Part shown: piece by piece, positions 32,430 to 38,364 of the stretch
How positions within the stretch are numbered: position 1 is the first letter of the stretch
Layout of the letters: each line of letters opens with the position of its first letter
Assembly: GCF_917563915.1 (NCBI RefSeq)
Contig: NZ_CAKJTI010000002.1
Coordinates: forward strand, 248,001 to 312,000
Source: Bacillus rhizoplanae
GTDB taxonomy: Bacteria; Bacillota; Bacilli; Bacillales; Bacillaceae_G
Length of the DNA stretch: 64,000 nucleotides
Reading direction: 5' to 3'
Notes under the pieces: model-generated
The model's input: only the letters and a program-made list of their open reading frames with translations
Databases searched by the model: none
Told to the model about the DNA's origin: nothing
Made by a program: the position numbers and the translations under genes

Positions 32430-32552
32430 AATCATTCTCCTTTTCTACTTTGTTTTATATAAAAATGTATTTACTTTCAATTTAGTTGTAATACGTTTGG
32501 TTACAACTTCATGTAACCATTATAGTTACAACCTTAATTCTTTGTCAACATA

Positions 32553-32592
32553 AAAAACAAGTTGCTTTTTATATGGAGTAAAAGCAACTTGC
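32553..32592 (-). terminator. Terminator of the EmrE-type efflux gene
   Basis: On the minus strand CAAGTTGCTTTT / AAAAGCAACTTG followed by six T. Confidence 0.85.
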
Positions 32593-32603
32593 AGAAAAGA
32601 AAA

Positions 32604-33569
32604 TTATGCTGTTTTCTTTTGTTTTGTAACAGGGACAGAGCGGTTTAAAATGCTGTTTGCTATCATTCCAAGTATGATAATGATCATCCCAATTAAAGAT
32701 AATCCAACAGGCCAAGAACCGTTTAAAAATAGAATTTCACCGAGAACAGTAAATATCATTGTTCCTGCTTGTGTCGCCTCTACCGCTCCTAACAAGGCAA
32801 AATTGTTTTTTGCAAGGTCAGTAGCAAAGAAGAATGTCATTGTGGCAATAACGCCAGAACATAGTGCCAATAAGAAACCTTGCATGATTTGTCCAGATGT
32901 TGGTATGCCAGTTGTAGACCATCCGTAAATTGCCAATATAATACTGACGGGAAGACTGCCGATTGCCATACCTAACACACGTTGAAATGTATCTAAGCGT
33001 CCCTCGACAACCTCCATCATTTTTCTGTTACCGAAAGGATATAAGAATGCAGCGATAACTACAGGTAGGAAACCGGATAAAAATTGAGAAACAGTAATAT
33101 GCCCAGCTTCTGTTGCTTGCATGCAAATGACACCTACTAAAATAAATAAGGAAATGAGCAAGCTTCGTATTGGGATTTTACCGCGAACTCGTTTTGTTCC
33201 TGATTTCGTTTCAACTGTAATAAAAAATAGCGGAGACAATAATAAGCCAGCTAGGACTGTTATTTGCCATGTACCTGCAACGAGCCATGCAGGACTAAAT
33301 ACAGCGGCGAAGCTTAATAAGGAATAAAATCCAACGCCGGCTAATGTGCCGAAACTAATCCATGCCAAAGGGTGTCTTCGCATTTCTGTCCATAATGAAC
33401 GAAGGTTTTTGCGAAATAAGACGATAAAGAATAAAATAGGTAAAGCAAATAAAAATCGGAAAGAAGCGGTCCAAGCCCAGCTTGTGCCCGATACGTTCAT
33501 AGTCCGGTTTATAATAAATGTAGCGGAAAAAAAGGCAGATGACAAAATGCCTAATAAAATAGCGCGCAT
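32604..33569 (-). CDS. Ten-helix DMT-superfamily efflux transporter
   Basis: 321 aa with ten membrane helices in two homologous halves, of the EmrE-domain 'multidrug resistance efflux transporter' group (PF13536). Probably exports small cations or metabolites by proton exchange. Divergent from the XRE-cupin regulator, which is its likely controller; the 92-bp shared spacer carries repeated TACTATACTATAC-type sequence. Confidence 0.8.
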   Translation of the reverse strand: MRAILLGILSSAFFSATFIINRTMNVSGTSWAWTASFRFLFALPILFFIVLFRKNLRSLWTEMRRHPLAWISFGTLAGVGFYSLLSFAAVFSPAWLVAGTWQITVLAGLLLSPLFFITVETKSGTKRVRGKIPIRSLLISLFILVGVICMQATEAGHITVSQFLSGFLPVVIAAFLYPFGNRKMMEVVEGRLDTFQRVLGMAIGSLPVSIILAIYGWSTTGIPTSGQIMQGFLLALCSGVIATMTFFFATDLAKNNFALLGAVEATQAGTMIFTVLGEILFLNGSWPVGLSLIGMIIIILGMIANSILNRSVPVTKQKKTA

Positions 33570-33661
33570 TACGTTCGCTCCTTTTTATAAGAATGCATAC
33601 TATACTATACTTTATTAACGAAAAAGTAAACTATATTTTATTAGGTGGTGTGAATATACAT

Positions 33662-34237
33662 ATGCGAGAACAAGAAGATATACAGACGAAAGAAGTTATT
33701 CAGCAAGTTGGTCAGTTGTTGAGACAAATACGAAATGAACAAAAATTAAGTTTAGAAGAATTAGCGAAAAAAACTGGTGTTAGTAAATTAACATTAGGAA
33801 AAATTGAAAGGGGGGAAACAAACCCTACATTAGGCGTGATTTGGAAGATTACAAAGGGATTATCCATTCCGTTGTCACGGCTTATGGTTGTAGGAGATAC
33901 AATAAATGTTTCACGCTGTGGAGAAGGGTTTACTGTAGAGGAAGAAAATCCAACGTGGCGATTAGAGACTATATTTCGCTATGCAAAAGAAACAGGGGTG
34001 GAAATGCATCGTGCCTGTTTGCAGCCGAATAGCATATATGAAACAGATCCTCATCATGAAGGAGCCATTGAATTTGTAACAGTAATGAAAGGGAAAGTTT
34101 CCATTCAAGTTGAACAAGAAGTATATAAATTAAACGAATTTGATTCTATTCAATTTGAAGCAAATCGAAAGCATAGCTATGAAAATAAGGGAAATGAAGT
34201 GGCAGTTTTACATTTAACAATGAAATATTCATCGTAA
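33662..34237 (+). CDS. XRE-cupin transcriptional regulator
   Basis: 191 aa from ATG 33662 (AGGTGGTG about 11 bp upstream). Helix-turn-helix (SLEELAKKTGVSKLTLGKIERG, shown across a 22-residue span at about residues 30-51: key residues SLEELAKKTG and KLTLGKIERG), then a C-terminal cupin domain with H in DPHHEGAIEF. Such proteins sense a small ligand. The divergent transporter gene is the likely target. The last codons lie at the possible left edge of the TnpB element. Confidence 0.82.
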   Translation: MREQEDIQTKEVIQQVGQLLRQIRNEQKLSLEELAKKTGVSKLTLGKIERGETNPTLGVIWKITKGLSIPLSRLMVVGDTINVSRCGEGFTVEEENPTWRLETIFRYAKETGVEMHRACLQPNSIYETDPHHEGAIEFVTVMKGKVSIQVEQEVYKLNEFDSIQFEANRKHSYENKGNEVAVLHLTMKYSS

Positions 34238-34436
34238 AATAATAAAAAGGCACCGATGGCTTATCGGAAAATGGGCAAGAAAACCCCACCTTCAAAACAC
34301 GCAGGGCATAGCCCGGTTTAAGGTGGGAATGAATTGCCCCAGCATTCGTAAAAAATTTTTGGTATCGATACGAATGTATGTTCTTTTTTGCTGTTTTGTA
34401 GTATCATGAAGGTGAGAAGAGAGGGAGGTGAAAATC

Positions 34437-35888
34437 ATGACAAAAGAAAAAGAATATGCAACCTATCAAGTTTGGATTAAGAAAGGTCATAAGTTATACT
34501 CTTACTTCCTAGAAATGTGTCAAAACGCAAAAAATCTCTACAATACAACAAACTTCTATATTCGCCAAGTGTATACGGCCTTACGTACGGATCAACCATT
34601 ACAGCCCCTTCAACAAGAAGTGCTTCGTACATTACAAGCGCATATTGAAATCATGAATGAAAATCAACTTCATGCGTATCAAAAACGTGTACAAAAACAA
34701 AAAGAAAAACCTGCTAAAGAACAGAAAGATATAAAATGTAACTTGTTTACATTCCCGACAAAAGAAAAATCATTCCTATCGTATCATTTCTTAGATTGCT
34801 TGTTTAAAGCAATGAAACAACAAGATTATATAAATTTGCCAGCGCAAACGAATCAAGCGATCATGAAAAAACTCTATCAAAACTGGAAATCATTCTTCGC
34901 TTCCATCAAGGCATACCAAAAACATCCTTCCACTTTTACTGGCAGACCTCGCATTCCAAAGTATATCAAATCTTCTATGACAGAAGTTGTATTCACCAAT
35001 CAAGTATGTAAACTTCAAGAGAAGTACATTCGTTTTCCAAAAACAAGTATAAAGTTAAATGTTGGTAAATTGTTTGGGTGGATTGGCAATCTCAAAGAGG
35101 TACGTGTTTCTCCTACTTACGGAAAGTTTAAAGTAGAAATTGTGACAGAAAAATCTGAGCCAGCATCTGAGTATGTAGACAACCATCGCTACATGAGTAT
35201 TGATTTAGGAATCAATAACATTGCAACTATCATAACGAATACAGGGGCTACTCCTGTGTTAGTAAAGGGCAATGTGATCAAAAGCATCAATCAATACTAC
35301 AACAAACAAAAGGCTCATTTACTGGGGATTCTTCGTCATGGAAAAGAACCAAAAGAAGGACCACATACATCAAAGCGTTTAGAGAGGCTTCATGAGAAAC
35401 GGTTTCTCAAAATAAAAGATTTCTTTCACAAAATCAGTTACCACATTGTTCATTTCGCTGTTCAATATGAGATTTCTATGATTGTGATTGGGAAAAATAC
35501 ATCATGGAAACAAAACAGTGATATGGGAAAACGACAGAATCAATCCTTTTGCCATATCCCACATAATCTACTCATTGGAATGATCAAGTACAAGGCGGAT
35601 CGGCAGGGAATTACGATACAAGTTGCGGAAGAATCGTATACAAGTAAAGCATCCTTTTTAGACAATGATGATATCCCAACATTTGGTGAAGAAGACATTC
35701 CTGTATTTAGTGGTAAACGAATCACGCGTGGCTTGTATCGAACGAAAGAAAACAAATTATTAAACGCAGATGTGAATGGTTCCTATAACATCTTAAAAAA
35801 AGCAGTTCCAAAGGCGTTTGTCGATGGAATAGAGGGGTTGTGCCATCAGGCAGCTGTGTCAACTCCACTCGTGTTAAGCATCTTTTGA
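34437..35888 (+). CDS. tnpB: TnpB RNA-guided nuclease with rearranged RuvC site and no zinc finger
   Basis: 483 aa from ATG 34437 (GGGAGGTG upstream). N-terminal WED/REC-like half rich in K, Q and aromatic residues; RuvC-I aspartate D256 in SIDLGINN; RuvC-III aspartate D445 in NADVNGSYN. Where most TnpBs have the RuvC-II glutamate this protein has MIVIGKNTSWKQ (351-354 IGKN), and the glutamate seems to move to E398/E399 in VAEESYTSKASF. The CxxC pairs of the usual zinc finger are absent; DNDDIP occupies that region. Full length without frameshift, so possibly active. Family knowledge: TnpB cuts DNA guided by an RNA from the element's right end. Confidence 0.88.
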   Translation: MTKEKEYATYQVWIKKGHKLYSYFLEMCQNAKNLYNTTNFYIRQVYTALRTDQPLQPLQQEVLRTLQAHIEIMNENQLHAYQKRVQKQKEKPAKEQKDIKCNLFTFPTKEKSFLSYHFLDCLFKAMKQQDYINLPAQTNQAIMKKLYQNWKSFFASIKAYQKHPSTFTGRPRIPKYIKSSMTEVVFTNQVCKLQEKYIRFPKTSIKLNVGKLFGWIGNLKEVRVSPTYGKFKVEIVTEKSEPASEYVDNHRYMSIDLGINNIATIITNTGATPVLVKGNVIKSINQYYNKQKAHLLGILRHGKEPKEGPHTSKRLERLHEKRFLKIKDFFHKISYHIVHFAVQYEISMIVIGKNTSWKQNSDMGKRQNQSFCHIPHNLLIGMIKYKADRQGITIQVAEESYTSKASFLDNDDIPTFGEEDIPVFSGKRITRGLYRTKENKLLNADVNGSYNILKKAVPKAFVDGIEGLCHQAAVSTPLVLSIF

Positions 35889-35946
35889 AGGTGATACACG
35901 AGAAACCCCCACTTCAAGATCCTAAGGAGATAAGTGGCGGGAGTTT
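35780..35946 (+). ncRNA. Candidate omega RNA (reRNA) scaffold of the TnpB element
   Basis: In TnpB elements the guide RNA spans the 3' part of tnpB and the right-end hairpin, with the guide taken from the flanking DNA. Here the 3' end of tnpB runs into a stable hairpin (AACCCCCACTT, loop with CAAGATCCTAAGGAGAT, AAGTGGCGGGAGTT). The 5' limit is a guess. The guide would be the pspC 3' end just beyond 35946-35950. Confidence 0.4.
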
Positions 35947-36135
35947 TCATTCATAAGATTGTGGCATAATTAACATAAGAATAAAATAAGCTAAAAAGCC
36001 TGTTCCGAAAAATAAAATTGCAATCAGCCAAAGAATACGGATCATATTTGTGTCCACACCGAAGTATTCCCCTAAGCCACCACAAACACCGATAAACACT
36101 TTATCTGTTGAAGATTTACATAATTTTTTATCCAT
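35947..36135 (-). CDS. PspC-domain small membrane protein
   Basis: 62 aa, ATG behind GGGGAGGAT. KVFIGVCGGLGEYFGVD followed by one or two membrane helices is the PspC domain. Stand-alone PspC proteins take part in envelope stress responses. The stop lies at the right end of the TnpB element; the coding region seems complete (ending MPQSYE). Confidence 0.88.
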   Translation of the reverse strand: MDKKLCKSSTDKVFIGVCGGLGEYFGVDTNMIRILWLIAILFFGTGFLAYFILMLIMPQSYE

Positions 36136-36265
36136 GATGAAATCCTCCCCTTTTCGCGATTCAACATTTTCCTATGTAGTAGTGAATATCTATGTTTTTA
36201 TCCTATATGAAAAGAAATATAGGAACTATCGAATTATATTACGTTTTTTGGGGAAAGATTACAGT

Positions 36266-36419
36266 TTTATCTCGCATTAACGGGCAGTAAGCCCCCCTAC
36301 CTCAAGATTGAGAGAAGGGAAGAAGATAAGTGGGGGATAACTGCCTGTAAAATCTCGATTGGTTCAACTAACCATCAGTGGAGGATGAAAAACCCCCACT
36401 GATGGAAGTTTCACTTTAT
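36266..36419 (+). repeat. bcr1 repeat, copy C
   Basis: Full-length: TTTAT at 36266-36270 and 36415-36419, 5' hairpin CCCCCTACCT / AAGTGGGGG, GATTGGTTCAACTAACC, 3' hairpin CCATCAGTGG / CCACTGATGG. Lies between the pspC start and the kimA end. Confidence 0.9.
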
Positions 36420-36478
36420 ATGATTACTGTTTTTTATTATTTCGTGTGTTTGCATGGGAAATATAAACATAAATAATA

Positions 36479-36520
36479 AACCAAAAGCAATGATCTATTT
36501 TTAATCATTGCTTTTGGCCT
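36479..36520 (-). terminator. Terminator of the kimA-like gene
   Basis: CCAAAAGCAATGAT / ATCATTGCTTTTGG stem; on the minus strand the trailing sequence is T-rich but broken (TTTATTATTT). Confidence 0.65.
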
Positions 36521-36540
36521 TCTATAAGGATAAAGCATCT

Positions 36541-38364
36541 TTATTTCTTAAATCGATACGGGACAGTTGAAACAATAACATTCTTTTTATACAAAAGATA
36601 TATCCTTAGTAAAACACTCGATTGGTTATGCAAAAAGTTATGCCAATTTTTTTTCGTAATAAATTGCGGAATGAGAACGGTAACTGCATAATGTTCCTCT
36701 TGTGCTTTATCTTGAATTGTAGTTACTAATTTTTTTATGGGTCTCATCAAGCTTCGATAAGAAGAAACTATTGTAACAAGACGAATGTTGGGTTTCCACG
36801 CCTTCCATTTCTCCTGCATTTTAATCTCGCTTTCTTTGTCGAAGGCCACGTAAACAGCGATAACAGTATCTCCAATAGATTCAGCGTAATTGAGCGATTG
36901 TTCCACTACCTTTGTAATTCCAGCAATAGGTACGATGACGACGTTTCCCTCGATTTTTTGAGGTGATTCATTAGGGTTTATACGTAGTTGTTCACCTACT
37001 GCGTCATAATGTTTATAAATGCGATGGAAGATAAACACAATAATGGGTAAAAATATAAAAATAGCCCAAACTTGCATAAATTTTGTAACAAAGAAAATGA
37101 GCAGTACGGTTAAGGAAATAAGTGCTCCTAATAAGTTAGTGAGTAATTTTGGTAACCACCCTTCTGGTTTTTCCCGAATCCATTTTATAATCATACCTGT
37201 TTGTGACAAGGTGAAAGGGAGAAATACACCCACTGCGTACAATGGAATTAAATGTTCGGTTTTCCCTTGAAACGTAACAATTAAAATAATGGAAGCAAAA
37301 CTGAGTGTGATAATACCGTTTGAATACCCTAAGCGATCACCACGCATCAAATACATGCGAGGCATATATTTATCTGACGCTAAGTTGTAAGCTAATAACG
37401 GAAATGCTGAGAATCCGGTATTGGCAGCTAACACTAAAATAAGAGCAGTTGCTCCTTGAATAAAGTAGTAAACAAAGTTTCTTCCAAATACATTGGAAGC
37501 GATTTGAGAAACAACAGTTTCAGCATGTTTAGGAGCAATGCCGTACCAATATGCTAAAAAGGTAATGCCAGTGAATAAAACGGCAAGAATTGCTCCCATC
37601 ATGACTAATGTATTGGCAGCATTTTTAGCAGCTGGTTCTTTAAAGTTTGGAATGGCGTTGGAAATTGCTTCAACACCTGTTAATGCAGAACACCCGGATG
37701 AGAATGCCTTTAATAAGAAGAATAATGTAATTCCAGGTACTGCCGTACCAATAGGTATGTGCAAAGTGGCCGGTGCTTGTCCAGATGTAATTTTAAATAC
37801 CCCAACAATAATTAAAATAACGAGCGCTAGCACAAAGAGATAGACAGGATAAGCTAATACAGAGGCAGATTCCGTTACTCCTCTAAGGTTGAGAATTGTA
37901 ATAAGAATAACGAGTATAACAGCGATGGGAATGGTGTACCGATGTAAAGTCGGAAACGCAGATGTAATGGCATCCGTTCCTGCTGATACACTTACTGCTA
38001 CGGTAAGGATATAATCTACCAACAATGACCCACCGGCGATGAGGCCTGCATTTACGCCTAGATTTGTTTTAGAAACTACATAAGCTCCGCCCCCGTGTGG
38101 GTAAGAATAGATAATCTGTCGGTATGATAAAATAAGTGCTGCCAATAGAACTAAAACACCGACAGCGATAGGAATGGAGTACCAAAATGCAACTGCTCCA
38201 ATTGTTGCAAGAACAATTAATATTTGTTCTGTTCCATACGCAACAGAGGAAAGCGCATCAGAAGACAGGATAGCCAGCGCTTTTAATTTATTTAACTTCT
38301 GCTCTCCTAATGCTGTTGATTTTAAAGGTCGCCCAATTAAAAATCTTTTGACTGTTGAAAACAT
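36541..38364 (-). CDS. kimA: KimA-type potassium importer (YdaO), APC superfamily
   Basis: 607 aa with about 12 membrane helices in residues 25-440 and a C-terminal cytoplasmic domain of about 150 residues (VVIVPIAGITKVVEQ onward). Matches B. subtilis KimA/YdaO along its whole length, from KALAILSSDALSSVAYGTEQ to LIPQFITKKNWHNFLHNQ. High-affinity K+/H+ symporter, inhibited by c-di-AMP in B. subtilis. No ydaO-type c-di-AMP riboswitch could be seen in the 290 bp upstream. Confidence 0.9.
   Translation of the reverse strand: MFSTVKRFLIGRPLKSTALGEQKLNKLKALAILSSDALSSVAYGTEQILIVLATIGAVAFWYSIPIAVGVLVLLAALILSYRQIIYSYPHGGGAYVVSKTNLGVNAGLIAGGSLLVDYILTVAVSVSAGTDAITSAFPTLHRYTIPIAVILVILITILNLRGVTESASVLAYPVYLFVLALVILIIVGVFKITSGQAPATLHIPIGTAVPGITLFFLLKAFSSGCSALTGVEAISNAIPNFKEPAAKNAANTLVMMGAILAVLFTGITFLAYWYGIAPKHAETVVSQIASNVFGRNFVYYFIQGATALILVLAANTGFSAFPLLAYNLASDKYMPRMYLMRGDRLGYSNGIITLSFASIILIVTFQGKTEHLIPLYAVGVFLPFTLSQTGMIIKWIREKPEGWLPKLLTNLLGALISLTVLLIFFVTKFMQVWAIFIFLPIIVFIFHRIYKHYDAVGEQLRINPNESPQKIEGNVVIVPIAGITKVVEQSLNYAESIGDTVIAVYVAFDKESEIKMQEKWKAWKPNIRLVTIVSSYRSLMRPIKKLVTTIQDKAQEEHYAVTVLIPQFITKKNWHNFLHNQSSVLLRIYLLYKKNVIVSTVPYRFKK

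Follow-up and report, generated by a model that had tools for sequence, protein, structure and literature searches.

The window analysed here is a 64,000-nt stretch of Bacillus rhizoplanae DNA (NZ_CAKJTI010000002.1, positions 248,001-312,000, forward strand), and all coordinates below are positions in it. It carries a tnpB gene whose product lacks the RuvC-II glutamate at the usual position. The gene is probably best explained as encoding the RNA-guided nuclease of a complete IS1341-type element, with a predicted RuvC site composed of D256, E399 and D445. Judging from sequence conservation, E399, and not the adjacent E398, is very likely the relocated RuvC-II acid. The relocated arrangement has already been published for TnpBs with an alternative glutamate (Ealt), for RuvC-II-rearranged TnpBs and for eukaryotic Fanzors, and in the sequences aligned here the RuvC-II pattern is common to the whole clade rather than a peculiarity of the window gene. 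The features of the gene are listed below; residue counts refer to the rows of an alignment of 47 non-redundant TnpBs.

34437..35888, + strand: tnpB, predicted RuvC-II-rearranged (Ealt) RNA-guided nuclease, 483 aa
34423..34430, + strand: ribosome-binding site GGGAGGTG upstream of the ATG at 34437, read directly
35202..35204, + strand: codon of D256, RuvC-I aspartate (SIDLG); D in 47/47 rows
35490..35492, + strand: codon of G352, canonical RuvC-II glutamate position (IVIGKN, 349-354); G in 35/35 Ealt rows, E in 12/12 canonical rows
35631..35633, + strand: codon of E399, proposed relocated RuvC-II glutamate; E in 35/35 G352 rows, 0/12 E352 rows
35769..35771, + strand: codon of D445, RuvC-III aspartate (NADVN); D in 45/47 rows, H in one (L039), gap in one truncated row (L101)

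The RuvC-II site in the window protein and its relatives

The 483-aa open reading frame (ORF) starts with ATG and is uninterrupted, as a preliminary description of this DNA had stated. Its product has the TnpB fold and matches the Pfam families OrfB_IS605 (6.4e-15) and Cas12f1-like_TNB (4.2e-07), as well as the NCBIfam model guided_TnpB (NF040570) at 144 bits, above the curated cut-off of 100. The same description held that both RuvC aspartates are in place, that the RuvC-II site has no glutamate and that the zinc-finger cysteines are absent. A check of the residue numbering confirmed D256 and D445, and the IVIGKN segment places G352 at the RuvC-II site. Residues 399-445 contain no cysteine. 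This segment is likewise cysteine-free in 16 Ealt rows, and one of the 35 has CxxC there.

Exact peptide patterns run against genome contigs yielded 29 loci in Bacillota and archaea, tblastn against plasmids yielded 138 records, four of which span 80% or more of the query, and viral contigs yielded nine loci; individual loci bear L-numbers below. Ten of the genome loci are fragments, frame-broken or near-duplicates; in a first alignment of the remaining 19 with the window protein, D256, G352, E399 and D445 are invariant. The wider set comprised 317 ORFs, each 280 aa or longer, from 159 loci and the window, of which 109 match a TnpB profile built here; 47 remain after thinning at 85% identity. 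Weaker matches, together with 12 genomes searched with Pfam, supplied the 12 canonical rows.

The two glutamate positions are reciprocal in all 47 rows. G352 is combined with E399 in 35 rows and E352 with Pro, Lys or Ser at 399 in the remaining 12, and no row has both glutamates or neither. Position 398 varies among the Ealt rows (Glu in 26, Asn in five, Asp in three and Gly in one). Six residues separate 399 from 406, a position that is Cys in all 12 canonical rows and Ser in the window protein (S406). The preliminary description had named E398 or E399, both within VAEESYTSKASF, as the missing acid. The reciprocity of 399 and 352, the variability of 398 and the spacing published for Ealt TnpBs, which lands on E399, argue for the second of these residues and against the first. 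Of the 35 Ealt rows, 33 carry the full set of D256, E399 and D445; the exceptions are L039, with His at 445, and L101, in which truncation leaves a gap.

L039 (G005:C3:322902-324323) is full-length, reads NAHVNG at RuvC-III and resides in a genome that also has an intact relative; it is possibly a natural nuclease-dead TnpB. In a maximum-likelihood tree, the 33 finger-less Ealt rows are grouped with support of 100/100. L049 and L101 lie on a separate long branch and combine the alternative glutamate with a finger cysteine (CxxC in L049; L101 is truncated after CPV), suggesting that relocation of the glutamate need not accompany loss of the finger.

The relatives are under purifying selection. 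The ratio of nonsynonymous to synonymous divergence (dN/dS, Nei-Gojobori) was calculated for 12 sequences, 18 of whose 66 pairs fall below the saturation cut-off. It is 0.059-0.107 in 15 of the 18 pairs and higher in the other three (0.161 for the window and L005, 0.263 for L001-L002 and 0.253 for L004-L006); these values are rough, as the synonymous distance exceeds 1 in all but two of the 18 pairs.

Element ends, insertion sites and right-end RNA

The gene lies alone between defined ends with subterminal hairpins, which is the arrangement of IS1341-type elements; PMC9956272 describes IS1341 as carrying only tnpB between its ends and reports it from B. cereus. The parts of the element are as follows.

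34265..35950, + strand: whole element, IS1341-type (tnpB only), IS200/IS605-like, 1686 bp; from aligned copies with differing flanks
34260..34264, + strand: CTTAT, target or putative target-adjacent motif (TAM), directly left of the element; 13 distinct insertion sites compared
34273..34339, + strand: left-end subterminal hairpin, GGGCAA..TTGCCC around CCCACCTT..AAGGTGGG; DNA fold z-score -2.73
35808..35950, + strand: scaffold of the right-end omega RNA, shared in part with the 3' end of tnpB, 5' limit predicted from the fold; 12- and 15-sequence alignments
35951..35970, + strand: putative guide, host DNA TCATAAGATTGTGGCATAAT; begins where conservation between copies stops

The last three bases before the element are TAT at all 13 distinct insertion sites, with C at position -4 in 11 and T in two (14 sites were listed, and L006 was dropped as sharing the site of L004). 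From these we infer a TAM of YTAT. The right end reads TTCAT in the window and in all 14 relatives read. The right-end hairpin of the window has a DNA fold z-score of -2.11; the left end of L001 folds at -4.87, and that of L008 no better than shuffles (-0.32). The preliminary description was also correct in finding no tnpA: besides tnpB, the sole ORF of at least 60 aa wholly between the ends is a 71-aa antisense frame.

The element has inserted 27 bp downstream of the stop codon of an XRE-cupin regulator gene and at that of an opposite-strand PspC gene. Both neighbouring ORFs are unbroken, and the PspC protein is identical with and without the insertion. Flanks were joined for 11 of the 13 relatives with listed boundaries (all except L006 and L009), scoring junction-spanning ORFs of at least 120 aa, and Pfam was consulted for L002 and L010. 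Joining of the L002 flanks restores a 200-aa frame at offset 0 (127 aa at -2 and +1) in which Peripla_BP_2 spans the junction, and joining of the L010 flanks restores a 172-aa frame, also with a Pfam match across the junction. L001 gives 156 aa at offset 0; L004 gives 134 aa there, but longer frames at all four other offsets. The L008 (122 and 121 aa) and L012 (139 and 138 aa) joins read through only at -1 and +2, and L003, L005, L007, L011 and L014 gave no junction-spanning ORF of this length.

Near-identical L001 and L002 occupy two sites of one genome. L004 and L006 share flanks, as do L003 and L013, each pair coming from two Brevibacillus genomes; L013 is frame-broken and L003 intact, indicating that copies stay at their site through inheritance and decay there. 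Some relatives stand beside an IS607 transposase (L061, L064) or an IS200/IS605 TnpA (L062). Searches with flank or lon DNA found no natural empty site among 199 and 396 (383 scored) genomes of the order, two of one genus, and 16 and 19 of two families; the best gene-length match in these searches is 76% identical. No near-match of 10 kb was found among plasmids.

The right-end RNA is supported by covariation. Twelve of 15 right ends were aligned over 186 columns, omitting the diverged L009 and two near-copies, L002 (of L001) and L013 (of L003); L014, whose ORF is frame-broken, was included in both this set and the full one. RNAalifold predicts 30 pairs, 14 with a compensatory double change, and 98.6% of cells pair, whereas sliding the partners lowers pairing to 38-50%. 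None of 500 shuffles reaches the observed paired cells, double-change pairs, double-change cells or covariation score, although 26 match the number of pair types. The same alignment served both to predict and to score the structure, which biases the result in its favour. With all 15 sequences, 23 pairs are predicted, 10 with a double change, and the right end of the window alone folds with a z-score of -2.78. In the window and in the Brevibacillus copies, the 3' end of the ORF extends into the RNA. In L007, L008, L010, L011 and L012, the ORF is shorter at this end by about 100 bases and does not reach the RNA. No second match to the guide with up to three mismatches occurs in the window. Rfam has no match close to the element that reaches the gathering score, and the weak ones below threshold were attributed to chance.

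Proposed mechanism, known systems and alternative explanations

Kinship and conservation suggest that the selfish element most likely encodes an active RNA-guided nuclease. Processing of the tnpB mRNA at its 3' end would release a right-end RNA to which TnpB binds, with the host DNA adjoining the right end as guide. TnpA supplied from elsewhere may excise the element; the re-formed empty donor site (YTAT plus guide) would then be cut by D256, E399 and D445, and repair would copy the element back and so retain it. E399 would substitute for the canonical RuvC-II glutamate, as the relocated residue does in Fanzors. E399 is thereby named as the expected third catalytic acid of a widespread finger-less TnpB clade, together with guide RNA, boundaries and a putative TAM, and cutting by Ealt enzymes without a zinc finger becomes directly testable with a compact protein.

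The TnpBs of Brevibacillus invocatus (L001, L002 and L004, three copies in one genome) are 58-60% identical to the window protein and have the same ends, TAM and RNA, with the omega RNA likewise overlapping the ORF. ISDra2 TnpB (PDB 8exa, 8h1j) has the canonical glutamate and a zinc finger, and its TAM is TTGAT rather than the putative YTAT. In a published set of about 800 sequences, canonical and alternative glutamates separate cleanly and the latter split into D-Phi-G and DPG clades (PMC10711439). The D-Phi-G TnpBs described there share with the window protein DLG at RuvC-I and a glutamate six residues before the first finger-Cys position. They differ in the finger: CxxC is absent from the window protein and from 34 of the 35 Ealt rows (one of them, L101, cut short), and the pattern search of PMC10711439 demanded CxxC.

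PMC10278001 names the rearranged clades RII-r3 and RII-r5, which likewise miss the RuvC-II glutamate from its usual place and have a right-end omega RNA, and reports that one RII-r5 ortholog cuts dsDNA. The NADVN of the window protein has the NADXN form given there for Derived TnpBs. By its residues at the canonical and alternative glutamate positions (G352, E399) the window protein is an Ealt, RuvC-II-rearranged TnpB, which does not imply placement in RII-r3 or RII-r5. The Fanzors (SpuFz1; mimivirus Fanzor2, PDB 9b0l) have in common with it a relocated RuvC glutamate and a TnpB-like fold, and in SpuFz1 the residues E541, D383, N385 and D606 hold two Mg ions (PMC10432273). The window protein differs from them in being prokaryotic, in having DLG rather than DPG, in lacking the finger and in belonging to an IS1341-type element; DLG at 256-258 and the absence of Cys from 399-445 rule out pro-Fanzor or Fanzor membership.

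Other assignments were rejected. The TldR class is defined by residue loss, and D256, E399 and D445 are all present at the predicted Ealt site. The relation to Type V-F Cas12f is one of profile similarity only, and there is no sign of the adjacent CRISPR array expected of that type: 32500-38000 contains no direct repeats of at least 20 bp within 150 bp. ISAam1 was dropped as a proven active clade member: the Anoxybacillus plasmid protein fetched has 405 aa, and there was no ISAam1 sequence to compare. The RAGATH-18/IS607 TnpB of ISFba1 has D194-E290-D371 (PMC11061315), which we read as the canonical arrangement.

Several points weigh against an active D256-E399-D445 nuclease in a mobile element. 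The 47-row sample is skewed to the clade of the query, most loci having been found with it. The tree requires a single change between the two glutamate positions, and the 47 rows are thus not 47 independent events. The predicted local distance difference test score (pLDDT) falls below 50 for residues 400-425, directly after E399. Adding L009 and the two near-duplicates to the RNA alignment loses the stem at columns 82-87/132-137 of the 12-sequence alignment. Y1 TnpA was found in four of seven genomes holding close relatives and not in the other three, and it was not found in the Brevibacillus genome carrying three copies. The RII-r5 ortholog is the only rearranged TnpB named active in the passages of PMC10278001 considered here.

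A nuclease-dead, RNA-guided repressor of the TldR kind is unlikely. The canonical glutamate is gone, TldRs originate by RuvC inactivation (PMC13418256) and the relative L039 loses D445, but the three acids are together in 33 of 35 Ealt rows, the ends are intact, the guide is the element's own insertion site and the copies lie in or beside different genes. It is still less probable that E398 supplies the missing acid, alone or jointly with E399: this position is Glu in 26 and Asp in three of the 35 Ealt rows, yet Asn in five and Gly in one, whereas 399 is Glu in all 35. The spacing published in PMC10711439 (glutamate, six residues, first Cys), with S406 at the Cys position, also points to E399.

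The preliminary description proposed a chromosomal role outlasting transposition. Domestication after loss of transposition would fit the lack of tnpA and the shared flanks of L004 and L006, which point to some inheritance in place, and is about as improbable as a catalytic E398; complete ends, guide RNA and putative TAM, unbroken neighbouring ORFs and near-identical L001 and L002 at two sites of one genome make such a role unnecessary. Least probable is a decaying, non-functional relic. L013 and L014 are frame-broken, with 19 and six stops in the frame read, but the window gene is free of stops and retains every motif, its right-end RNA folds, and dN/dS among intact relatives is mostly 0.06-0.11. 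An RNA-guided nuclease of a selfish element thus remains the preferred reading, and nothing in the analysis points to the different metal handling that the preliminary description had also suggested. It is doubtful that, in the finger-less clade, the relocated glutamate and the zinc-finger loss form one package, marking a distinct mechanistic subclass of RNA-guided nuclease; the accompanying picture, in which E399 is the last residue of a strand and a flexible loop (400-425) follows in place of the finger, is equally tentative. Were the package real, non-target-strand loading or single-strand trans-cleavage may differ from canonical TnpB.

Further relatives and neighbouring sequence

L064, on a Ligilactobacillus salivarius plasmid beside an IS607 transposase, has DPG and the alternative glutamate with no CxxC in the stretches read, and two viral-contig sequences (L070, L072) resemble it in all three respects. 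These three carry a Fanzor-like fingerprint outside cyanobacteria, which a pattern requiring CxxC would overlook. Two genomes, G226 and G230, contain 29 and 37 places matching the window protein, many with 420-aa open frames. The two copies read among these matches (L085, L086) are Ealt, and the Ealt clade seems to have expanded in both genomes.

Promoter and terminator scans gave counts near those of shuffles (5 versus 7.7 and 2 versus 1.7, respectively). At about 36256-36427, the window contains an interspersed repeat, some 158 bp long, whose two ends carry TTTAT-like sequence. Thirteen genomes of the same order together supplied 15 copies, which align at 76-85% and have differing flanks; the repeat is similar to bcr1 of the B. 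cereus group.
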